From positions 1,240,001-1,304,000 of the forward strand of contig CM041196.1 of NCBI GenBank assembly GCA_023078555.1: 64,000 bases of DNA. Direction: 5' to 3'. Each line of letters starts with the position of its first letter. Position 1 is the stretch's first letter. The notes beneath the pieces were generated by a model. That model was not told the DNA's origin and did no database searches. It was given only the letters and a program-made list of their open reading frames with translations. The DNA is from Ulva prolifera. Lineage: Eukaryota > Chlorophyta > Ulvophyceae > Ulvales > Ulvaceae. Positions 10,247 to 40,447 of the stretch are shown in pieces. The position numbers were made by a program, and so were the translations under genes.

Positions 10247-12361
10247 ATGTCTAACCTCTGTAGAGCACGATTGAATACCTGCTCGCACGGCAACCGGAAT
10301 CCGGCGATGAGGCAGCGAGCTGCCGTGACCATGCGGGCTGCAGCTGAGCAAACCATGACGGTGTCAGCGAAGATGGCCCAGCTGCGAGCAGACGGCCGCA
10401 CAGCAATGATTCCGTTCATCTGCGCTGGTGCGGCTCTCTCGGACGATTGCGCAAACTCCAACCACGAGCAGCCTCTAAGACTAAAAAATATGTATCATCG
10501 GTCCGAGCAGCGGCACCCGCAGCGCGCAGAGAGTGCTCCCCATCCGTCCATCGACGGTACTGCCATGCGACACTGAGCTCTTAAATAGAGGACTCACGTC
10601 GCGAATAAAGCGCACAGTTGCGCACAGTTGTTCTTTGAAATGCGTCCTGCTGCTGTTTGTAGGCGATCCGGATCTTGAGACCACCGGCAAGGCTCTCAAG
10701 GCACTGGACGAGGCAGGCGCAGATGTCATCGAGCTGGGGGTGCCCTACTCAGACCCCCTCGCAGATGGCCCCACCATTCAAGGAGCAGCAGATCGTGCCT
10801 TGAGGAAAGGCACAACGCTGCAGGTATGCTGCCGCCGGCCTGAAGCATCTGCCACACTGCCCTGCATCCCTGCCGTCGATGCCTGCACCAAGAGGTCTCT
10901 GCACGAATGCTGCGTTTTCCCAAAGCTGCTGCAGTCCGCCACTCTGCTTCAGCCCCTATCATTTGTCTCCCGCCCCCCCCCCTTTTCACATTCCCCTAGC
11001 CAAATATAATCTGCCGCCGCCGCCGCCTTGCAGATGGTGCTGGACATGCTGTCGGGCGTGTCAGGCGACATTGCGGCGCCGATCGTGCTGTTCACGTACT
11101 ACAACCCGATCATGGCGCGCGGCCTCGAGCGCTACTGCGCCGACATCCGCGCCGCCGGCGCCTCCGCGCTGCTCGTGCCAGACATCCCGCTCGAGGAGAC
11201 GGACGCGATCCGCGCCGCGCTCGCCGCGGAAGGCCTGGAGCTCGTGCTCCTCACCACCCCCACCACCCGTGCGCCTCGCCCCCTGCTGTGACCAGTCAAG
11301 CAAATCCGGGGCGACCGAGCCGTATCCTGAAGAGGATATTGACAACTCCGAATGAACTGTCCTCATGTTGCATCGTGTGTTCTCGCCGGTGGGTTTGACG
11401 TGCTTCGCGTCCGGAGGTGTTGCTGCTTGTGGCGAGCAGCAGTTGGGCGTTGTGGTTCCGTGGTTGACGGGGATCTGGCGTTGCCCGCGTGTCCGCTCCG
11501 CTCGGTCTCCTTGGATGGTCTCGCTGCGTTGGTTTGCTGGCAGTCTGACTGGCCCGTCACTGCCTCGCCACCTCGAGGGGCGGTGTGGCGGTGCAGGCGG
11601 TGCAGGCGGTGTGGCGGTGCAGGCGGTGCAGGCGGCATGTGTGGTGGGCTCACGGCGCATGCGGAGAGACCCTGACAGCCGCAGCCGGCGGGACAGGTCT
11701 GAACAGCCAAGCCATTCGCAGCCGGGACCCTGCTGGCTTCTCTGGTGCTCAACACGGGCACTGATCCTGTGTCACACATTCCTCACAAAGGACTTTTTTG
11801 AATGTTTATTCAATTCTTGCAAGCAGCAGTGCTCTCGACGGCCGATGCATGCCACCGCCACGTGGCGGTGGCCGCAGTGGCCGATGCGCGGTGTGCTAGA
11901 GAAGGCGGCACACGAGACGTGTGCACGAGGACGTGTGCGATGCACAGAAGGGGGCAACAGGCCGCCCCGCCTGCACCGCAATTGCATGTGTAGCACGCAA
12001 CCCATCATGACATCGGTGTGTGTGATCCTCTGCAGGCAAGGAGCGCATGGAGCGCATCGCGGCGGCAACCCAGGGCTTCCTCTACCTCGTCTCCGTGACC
12101 GGCGTCACCGGCGCCCGCTCGGAGGTCTCGACTCGCGTCCAGGACCTCCTCACAGAGATCAAATCCAAGACGGACCTGCCAGTGTGTGTCGGGTTCGGGG
12201 TGTCGGACGGCGAGCAGGCGCGGCAGCTCAAGAGCTGGGGCGCCGACGGCGTCATCGTCGGCTCGGCGCTCGTGAAGCTGCTCGGCCAGGCGGAGTCCGG
12301 GGACGCGGGCGTGGAGGAGATGCGGCGGCTCGCACAGGAGCTGCGCGCCGCCCTGGACTAG
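10247..12361 (+). CDS. trpA: Tryptophan synthase alpha subunit, plastid-type
   Basis: Cleaves indole-3-glycerol phosphate to indole and glyceraldehyde 3-phosphate, passing indole to the beta subunit. Exons 10247-10427, 10663-10823, 11034-11268 and 12036-12361 are phase-consistent and give 300 residues. The core matches the TIM-barrel family: [20 protein letters not shown], then [18 protein letters not shown] with catalytic Glu84 and Asp95 (11 apart, as Glu49 and Asp60 of the Salmonella enzyme). [50 protein letters not shown] and [12 protein letters not shown] follow. The first 45 or so residues are rich in Arg, Ala, Thr and Asn and include VTMRAAAEQ, as in a chloroplast transit peptide (inference). 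The last exon is also the left end of the tandem duplication. Confidence 0.95.
11319..11357 (+). repeat. 39-bp dispersed repeat, copy 2 ([15 protein letters not shown])
   Basis: Second copy of the element at 3511-3549, lying 50 bases into the third trpA intron. Two of the three differences are third-codon changes in the PYPE reading frame. Confidence 0.7.
11582..11637 (+). repeat. GC-rich minisatellite (GCAGGCGGT-type)
   Basis: Tandem 9-base units based on GCAGGCGGT and GTGGCGGT in the third trpA intron. Confidence 0.8.
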
Positions 12362-39235: not shown

Positions 39236-40447
39236 TCACCAGGCATGCCTCAGGCGGTGCTGCTGTGGTGGGGAAGGAACCGTGGGTGCCAGGTGCGGGG
39301 GGTCATGGACCTCAGGGGCACCATGGTACTGCACGTACGTCACTCCGTACTGCCCAGAGTGAGGGGATACGCCATACTGCCCTGAGTGAGGGGAGACGCC
39401 GATGTAGCCATCCCCTGTCGATGTGACAAACAGCGTCCCAACATCGCCCTTGACATACACCGTGGAGTCTGAGCCCTCACCCTTGCCCTCATGACCAGAG
39501 CTGAAGCGCTTGAATGTAGACGGGCCGTTGCTGTCGCGGAGTGTTCCGTGGTGGCTGTGGCTGTGGTGGCCGTGGCTGTGGTGGCCATGGCTGCGGTGGC
39601 CCTTGCTGGGGTGGCCATGGCGGCGGCTGTGGTGGTCATGGCCGCCGTGGCCCTTGCTGTGGTGGCTGTGGCTGGTGCGGCTGCTGCGGCGAGGGGCTTG
39701 GGCGGAAGAGCCCTTGCCGCTGCGGCCTCGTGCCGGCCTGGAAACGCGGGCGGGGCTGGGGGACCTCTTGCTGTTGCGGCCTCGGCTTGGCTTGGAGGGG
39801 CGGGCCAGAGTGTCCTTGCCGTTGCGGGAACGGCGGCGGGGGTCGGTGGGGCGGGCGCGGCGGGGAGCGCGCTTGCCGTTGCGGGTTCGGACGGGGTCGG
39901 TGGGGCGGGCACGGCGGGGAGCGCGCTTGCCGGTGCGGGTTCGGACGGGGTCGGCGGGGCGGGCGCGGCGGGGAGCGCGCTTGCCGGTGCGGGTTCGGAC
40001 GGGGTCGGCGGGGCGGGCGCGGCGGGGAGCGCGCTTGCCGGTGCGGGTGCGTGGTGCGTTGCTGCTGGGCGGCTGGTCACGGGAGCCGCGTGCGCGTTCA
40101 CGGCGCTGCAGCTGCAAGAGATACCGGCCCATGCCAACGCCATTGTCAAGCTCATCCTCCATGCCTCCAGAGCCATCATAGCTGTTCATGAACTTTGCAG
40201 ACTTACAGACGCCGCCGATGTCCTTCAAGGCGTTGGCGCAGCCGGTGTTGGGACACGGCGGCTCATCGAGGTGGCCACAGCTGGAGTCGGCCCCGGTGAC
40301 ATCCAGCGGTGCCCGGGCTTGTGCAAGGCTGTCTGCCAGCATGCGACGCCCGTGAACGCCGTCCAGGCCGGCGGCGGCAGCTGGGCCGCCCAGCAAGGTA
40401 GCGCACACCGCGTGCACGACGACCACAATGGATGCGACAGTCCTCAT
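39236..40447 (-). CDS. Secreted cationic Arg/His-rich repeat protein A
   Basis: Not recognised. Single coding exon, 403 residues from the ATG at 40447. That ATG follows a likely 5'-leader intron (donor GTGAGC at 40753, acceptor GTGCAG, resuming at 40453). It begins with a signal peptide (MRTVASIVVVVHAVCATLLG, then Ala-rich). A Cys-bearing segment follows (SSCGHLDEPPCPNTGCANAL). Four tandem 18-residue repeats built on RTRTGKRAPRRARPADP come next, then basic Ser/Arg spacers. A His-rich zone is made of SHGHH and SHSHH units. A conserved end domain contains STVYVKGDVGTLFVTSTGDG and YIGVSPHSGQ. Extremely high net positive charge suggests a matrix or polyanion-binding role, and the His clusters could bind metals (inference). 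The same-strand paralogous logic with gene B confirms this strand is the coding one. Confidence 0.75.
   Translation of the reverse strand: MRTVASIVVVVHAVCATLLGGPAAAAGLDGVHGRRMLADSLAQARAPLDVTGADSSCGHLDEPPCPNTGCANALKDIGGVCKSAKFMNSYDGSGGMEDELDNGVGMGRYLLQLQRRERARGSRDQPPSSNAPRTRTGKRAPRRARPADPVRTRTGKRAPRRARPADPVRTRTGKRAPRRARPTDPVRTRNGKRAPRRARPTDPRRRSRNGKDTLARPSKPSRGRNSKRSPSPARVSRPARGRSGKGSSAQAPRRSSRTSHSHHSKGHGGHDHHSRRHGHPSKGHRSHGHHSHGHHSHSHHGTLRDSNGPSTFKRFSSGHEGKGEGSDSTVYVKGDVGTLFVTSTGDGYIGVSPHSGQYGVSPHSGQYGVTYVQYHGAPEVHDPPHLAPTVPSPPQQHRLRHAW
39838..40051 (-). repeat. 54-bp coding tandem repeat (four copies)
   Basis: Four near-perfect copies encode the 18-residue Arg-rich unit of protein A. Protein B has about one and a half degenerate units. 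Confidence 0.9.

Follow-up and report, generated by a model that had tools for sequence, protein, structure and literature searches.

In the genome of Ulva prolifera, a four-unit tandem array of a divergent gene pair lies between trpA and a gene for a cationic protein (cationic gene A), and the array is real. Each unit carries a basic gene and an acidic gene, and remnants of both neighbouring genes persist inside the array. We favour, with a probability of about 0.6, a reading in which a duplication running from trpA to cationic gene A founded the array, later exchange or conversion reshaped it, and the acidic gene encodes a secreted, Cys-rich, polyanionic wall or mucilage protein whose dosage the array raises. 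The window, meaning the whole stretch of 64,000 nucleotides analysed here, corresponds to C1:1240001-1304000 in a genome of 88.9 Mb and 44 contigs; positions without a prefix are those of the window.

Results

A tandem array of a divergent gene pair

Self-BLAST of the window gave four direct units, and open frames together with a comparison of substitutions place the basic gene on the minus strand and the acidic gene on the plus strand of every unit (Table 1). The preliminary description had proposed this arrangement, and it stands. The units are unequally spaced, with ~7.3 kb from unit 1 to unit 2 and 6.2-6.6 kb thereafter, depending on the landmark. An offset of 6185 separates units 3 and 4, which show 8 mismatches between 26001 and ~30670; units 1 and 2 align in two long blocks with identities of 92.6% and 87.2%. 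The left flank of unit 1 is the genuine 3' end of trpA. An 80-bp inverted repeat (13490-13569 and 43864-43943, 82.5% identity) flanks the array region on both sides.

The same assembly carries part of this sequence a second time. The alignment of C1:1-20811 to 12241-33051 of the window contains 15 gap columns but 0 mismatches, and 100 N follow it on C1. Because all the differences are gaps, we read C1:1-20811 as a redundant contig, which would be an assembly artefact and no second array. It supports the order seen for units 1-3 and the beginning of unit 4, but it is not independent of the reads behind the main copy. The redundant contig also inflates gene counts.

Table 1 Features of the array and its borders (window positions)
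Feature	Position	Strand	Basis
trpA last exon, gene intact	12036..12361	+	PF00290 match C1:1252023-1252352; sequence reading; copy alignment
Basic gene, unit 1, likely 3' exon	13846..14302	-	Open frame 13846-14349; few replacement changes between units
Borders of the unit 1 basic exon	stop 13846-13848; splice acceptor before 14302	-	Acceptor conserved in units 1-3
Basic gene promoter element TATAT-AAGGGCGAC, units 1-4	14578..14591, 21903-21916, 28124-28137, 34309-34322	-	Sequence search
Acidic gene promoter element TATTT-AAGGGCGAC, units 1-4	15268..15281, 22604-22617, 28825-28838, 35010-35023	+	Sequence search, alignment
Acidic gene main exon, unit 1	15567..16938	+	Open frame, Pfam match, sequence reading, alignment
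Parts of the unit 1 acidic gene	hydrophobic start; G-D/N-E tract ~15817-16209; Cys/Ala domain 16210-16935	+	
Decayed remnant of cationic gene A (3' part), end of unit 1	18956..19112	-	Matches 39239-39400; shuffle control
Decayed trpA intron/last-exon piece, start of unit 2	19637..19787	+	Alignment, shuffle control
Basic open frame, unit 2	21177..21680	-	Open frame; between-unit substitutions
Acidic gene main exon, unit 2	22899..24360	+	Open frame; alignment of copies
Decayed trpA piece, start of unit 3	26218..26398	+	Alignment, shuffle control
Basic open frame, unit 3	27400..27903	-	Open frame; between-unit substitutions
Acidic gene main exon, unit 3	29120..30545	+	Open frame
Decayed trpA piece, start of unit 4	32403..32583	+	+6185 offset from unit 3; alignment
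Basic open frame, unit 4	33585..34088	-	Open frame; between-unit substitutions
Acidic gene main exon, unit 4	35305..36730	+	Open frame; alignment of copies
Unit 4 downstream flank	36910..39235	.	Homologous to the units 1-3 flank but diverged; runs into cationic gene A
Intact cationic gene A, whose 3' end holds the right founding breakpoint	39236..40447	-	Open frame, alignment, genome search for relatives

Remnants of trpA and cationic gene A mark the founding breakpoints

A profile search with PF00290 found only one trpA gene in the genome, with three exon matches. Its last intron and exon (11984-12092) align to 19678-19787, and 12029-12117 aligns to 26304-26398, while the unit 4 piece lies +6185 from that of unit 3 within a mismatch-free stretch. 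The remnant match scores 69.8 bits, compared with at most 27.4 bits in 100 dinucleotide shuffles. Matches to the last trpA exon had been predicted at 19723, 26305 and 32490, and the alignments found there open units 2, 3 and 4. All three pieces share a 6-bp insertion that is absent from trpA itself, which argues that they derive from one event. The alignments support a left founding breakpoint that would lie in the trpA intron before the last exon, near 11950.

For the right edge, three colinear blocks of unit 1 match the far end of the array, where the sequence runs into cationic gene A: 17536-18194 with 37343-37998, 18642-18701 with 38898-38957 and 18956-19112 with 39239-39400 (245, 46.4 and 59.9 bits, respectively, compared with at most 30.1 bits in 100 dinucleotide shuffles). 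Only the unit 1/2 junction keeps a long remnant of cationic gene A, with ~51 bp left at the unit 2/3 junction (26133-26183). The preliminary claim that cationic gene A supplies the right edge with its 3' end holds, and the claim that the breakpoints are directly readable holds in part: remnants survive at both edges and therefore make both founding breakpoints readable, but the junctions between units are not equally so, because unequal exchange and conversion would have overwritten units 2-4. The 519-bp filler at the unit 1/2 junction (19113-19631) matches nothing in the genome except itself and the redundant contig, and its source was not found.

The array copies evolve in concert

Compared with units 1, 2 and 3 in turn, unit 4 is 97.8/98.8/100% identical in the basic exon, 96.2/99.8/99.7% in the acidic promoter, 99.2/98.3/99.4% in the Cys/Ala domain and 98.3/97.7/97.6% over ~170 bp past the stop, and its identity is 58/65/64% in the downstream flank and 69/67/67% farther out. 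The gene body of unit 4 is 97.6-100% identical to that of unit 3, and units 2 and 3 agree at 741/741 columns of the farther downstream flank segment. The array copies thus resemble one another more closely in the repeated part than could be expected from their flanks. Within the Cys/Ala domain, dN is low against dS, and dS between array units is 0.017-0.062. Selection on the protein does not account for such low silent divergence next to diverged flanks, but exchange and conversion do. The copies evolve in concert as an observed mosaic, for which exchange or conversion is the presumed molecular route.

A stray inverted copy of the acidic gene lies at C1:1198451-1199176, ~57 kb upstream of the unit 1 acidic gene. 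Its domain shows a dS of 0.22-0.26 to the four units, and its N-terminal part, over 70 aligned residues only, a dS of 1.54 and a dN of 0.90 to unit 1. The similarity begins in the repeat and stops at the point where that of unit 4 also stops, ~20 nt past TGTAA, the green-algal poly(A) signal.

The basic gene and a shared promoter element

The basic gene was not found in the genome outside the array, three further places being the redundant contig, and a Pfam search matched it to no family. Its exon carries 5 silent and 3 replacement changes between units 1 and 2, and 8 silent and 3 replacement changes between units 1 and 3. One plus-strand frame over the exon gives identical figures but contains 2 stops. 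Because replacement changes are few relative to silent ones and the equal-scoring plus frame is interrupted, the basic frame is, on these small numbers, likely a coding exon on the minus strand. The best candidate for a first exon was rejected, as its phase fits units 1 and 3 and not unit 2.

In both genes of every unit, a TATA-like box is followed by AAGGGCGAC (8/8 promoters), and all 8 occurrences of this 9-mer in the window are at array promoters. With such matching promoters, the genes of a unit are probably regulated together.

The acidic gene belongs to a large family with a Cys/Ala-rich domain

Neither gene family had been recognised in the preliminary description. That remains true of the array-specific basic gene, but the acidic gene is one member of a family with about 64 loci, and its repeat matches Pfam Collagen. 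A genome search with the unit 1 domain gave at least 111 matches (150/153 candidates scored), 67 of them with E<=5e-23, and subtraction of three in the redundant contig leaves about 64 family loci. More than half of the loci (33/64) cluster within 330 kb at C3:1347161-1676410, and 3/64 have a stop inside the match. Members share a layout of a hydrophobic start, an R-x-L-L-type motif, Gly-(Asp/Asn)-Glu blocks and a Cys/Ala-rich domain. The hydrophobic stretch is conserved in the family, with the start codon presumably in a further exon upstream. The acidic protein has a net charge of -84 in unit 1 and -99 in unit 2. An alignment of 17 members shows eight invariant Cys; a further two are invariant in the 8 members that are aligned that far.

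From 47 non-array loci considered, 9 were omitted as broken, partial or weak, and the other 38 entered a tree together with the four array copies (42 rows). The array, the inverted copy near C1:1198k and a pair on C8 form one branch (support 100/99). The members of this pair, C8:230150-230836 (-) and C8:240174-240860 (+), are inverted, have identical domains and contain almost no triplets. The R-x-L-type motif is present in 39/42 rows, with the pattern widened to admit RKPLF of the array. Split matches, which give approximate labels, place an intron near residue 178 in 20/42 rows and in none of the array clade; its distribution requires 5 changes on the tree, with 3 changes forced by well-supported branches. 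Upstream of the family loci, TATA-like boxes occur in 10/36 rows versus 4/36 in the downstream control, after 2/38 loci rows with a missing anchor were dropped and array rows excluded. By intron status, they occur in 10/18 intronless rows versus 0/18 rows with the residue-178 intron, a pattern reported without a statistical test because the rows are related.

No relative of the Cys/Ala domain was found in GTDB, IMG/VR, PDB or Pfam. Bacterial and viral origins of the domain were rejected, as pattern-led scans gave 592 stretches in GTDB and 334 in IMG/VR, with 0 confirmed in either. A PDB search returned no relative up to E 1, and a Pfam search with the domains of 17 members touched 7 families, each in 1/17 only (best E 0.0066). 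In the portions of the published literature covered, no description of the acidic family was recognised, and the excerpts of PMC8307928 and PMC9164130 held nothing on it.

The collagen-like tracts contain no proline

Pfam Collagen (PF01391) matches unit 1 at E 1.5e-16; among ten other family members, E<0.01 was obtained in 9/10 and the Pfam cut-off exceeded in 5/10. The tracts have Gly at every third residue, as collagen does, but 0 Pro in 2,905 residues (963 triplets, 42 rows) and so none of the Pro or hydroxyproline that typifies the X and Y positions of collagen. In the array tracts, silent third positions vary, but the first two bases of the Gly and Glu codons are unchanged; this pattern is descriptive only because the triplets were chosen by protein sequence.

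Across the genome, PF01391 matched at least 125 stretches (150/317 candidates scored). We rejected the idea that every such match belongs to the acidic family, as many stretches lie outside family loci; five of these consist of GERGLAG, GSTGSTGSA or G-D/N-E repeats of other kinds, and each holds 0 or 1 Pro. At C8:2442812-2463402, five equal PF01391 stretches are spaced at ~5.09 kb (one at 5.17 kb), likely another tandem array.

Neighbouring cationic genes

Cationic gene A and an inverted gene at 42405-43424 (+) encode related, His-rich cationic proteins with a pI of ~11 that are probably secreted. Relatives of cationic gene A occur at only two further places in the genome, one adjoining and the other at C6:1645354-1646604. 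The neighbouring cationic proteins carry an R-x-M-L motif after the hydrophobic stretch, resembling the acidic family. A partnership of polyanion and polycation as a general rule is speculation that we did not retain, given these two places only and the lack of a strong family match at the C6 one. Farther on, 45409-46029 (-) contains an exon matching Pfam GLE1 (E 4.2e-10).

Discussion

We propose a model for the origin of the array and the role of its acidic gene. A stretch running from the 3' end of trpA across the basic and acidic genes into the end of cationic gene A would have been duplicated in tandem in the Ulva nucleus, with the last intron of trpA joined to the cationic gene at its 3' end, as the remnants indicate. 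Unequal exchange may later have produced four units, and conversion or exchange would have kept the gene bodies alike while the flanks decayed. The acidic gene product is probably secreted and very acidic; its hydrophobic start and R-x-L-L-type site are followed by a Pro-free polyanionic tract. The Cys- and Ala-rich domain is probably disulfide-bonded and may hold or multimerise the protein. The protein most likely serves in the wall or mucilage, where its acidic tract could bind Ca2+/Mg2+ and basic polymers, and the array would raise its dosage, so that a polyanionic wall component would be maintained in large amounts. Two observations count against this reading: family members such as the C8 pair are without the G-D/N-E tract, and the first exon proposed for the basic gene, with its 2-bp shift in unit 2, is not conserved.

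Could the array be an artefact of assembly, or its copy number wrong? Units 3 and 4 are nearly identical and the same assembly does contain a redundant contig at the C1 start, yet units 1 and 2 differ widely, the junctions are each distinct in sequence, and the unit order recurs in the redundant contig without a mismatch, which together make an artefact highly improbable. It is also unlikely that cDNA-templated copying shaped the acidic genes. Such copying could explain why the inverted copy and unit 4 lose similarity at the mRNA 3' end and why the residue-178 intron is missing from the array clade. However, the homogenised tract of unit 4 continues on the upstream side to take in the promoter and the basic gene, which a cDNA would lack, and alignment of the 3' ends showed no trace of poly(A).

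As for the protein, a true collagen that forms a triple helix through its Gly-X-Y tracts and is trimerised by its Cys domain would fit the regular glycines and the Pfam matches, but the absence of Pro, the five members under the Pfam cut-off and the repulsion expected among triplets that are nearly all acidic make it quite improbable. Rather doubtful, too, is a destination in the plastid or thylakoid lumen, or a role as an intracellular cation buffer, in place of the wall. A hydrophobic stretch followed by A-x-A is likewise present in the plastocyanin precursor of this genome, an exon of which matches PDB 7PCY, from Enteromorpha (Ulva) prolifera, at 48/48 residues and PDB 1IUZ less well; against this, the many Cys, the many tandem copies and the R-x-M-L motif of the cationic neighbours would better suit surface proteins. 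The plastocyanin match makes the genome almost surely that of U. prolifera and, less probably, that of a close sister such as U. linza.

U. compressa is reported to have four collagens, termed similar to animal proteins (PMC9266709), U. mutabilis is cited there as having 28 collagen genes, and detection of both collagens and elastins is reported for two Ulva species (PMC10762512). Reports of animal-like Ulva collagens feed ideas on the origins of multicellular matrices. The collagen match of the acidic family rests on Pro-free acidic triplets and is accompanied by a domain unseen in the collections searched, and part of the published Ulva "collagens" may be members of this family. A bolder proposal, to which we give slender odds, is that the family forms a Pro-free, all-acidic Gly-X-Y matrix that would assemble, as a triple helix or a polyglycine-II bundle, only when neutralised by sea-water Ca2+/Mg2+, with the lineage-specific Cys domain as its assembly head. 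If this were true, at least part of the animal-like collagens of Ulva would be a convergent Pro-free polymer.

The array offers a compact natural experiment, in which founding breakpoints, amplification and homogenisation can be read and a stray inverted copy shares part of the tract. Like rDNA and histone gene clusters, it has gene bodies that are alike, here observed beside diverged flanks; unlike them, it is small, repeats a divergent pair and keeps its founding breakpoints readable in two neighbouring genes. With collagen-like Gly-X-Y proteins of the PF01391 type, including those of Ulva, the acidic family shares the glycine at each third residue and the Pfam match, but it is Pro-free, has Asp/Asn at X and Glu at Y in most triplets and is fused to a Cys/Ala domain for which the collections searched gave no relative. 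The snow flea antifreeze protein, a polyglycine-II bundle, likewise has glycine at each third residue and needs no hydroxyproline, whereas the triplets of the acidic family are almost all acidic.
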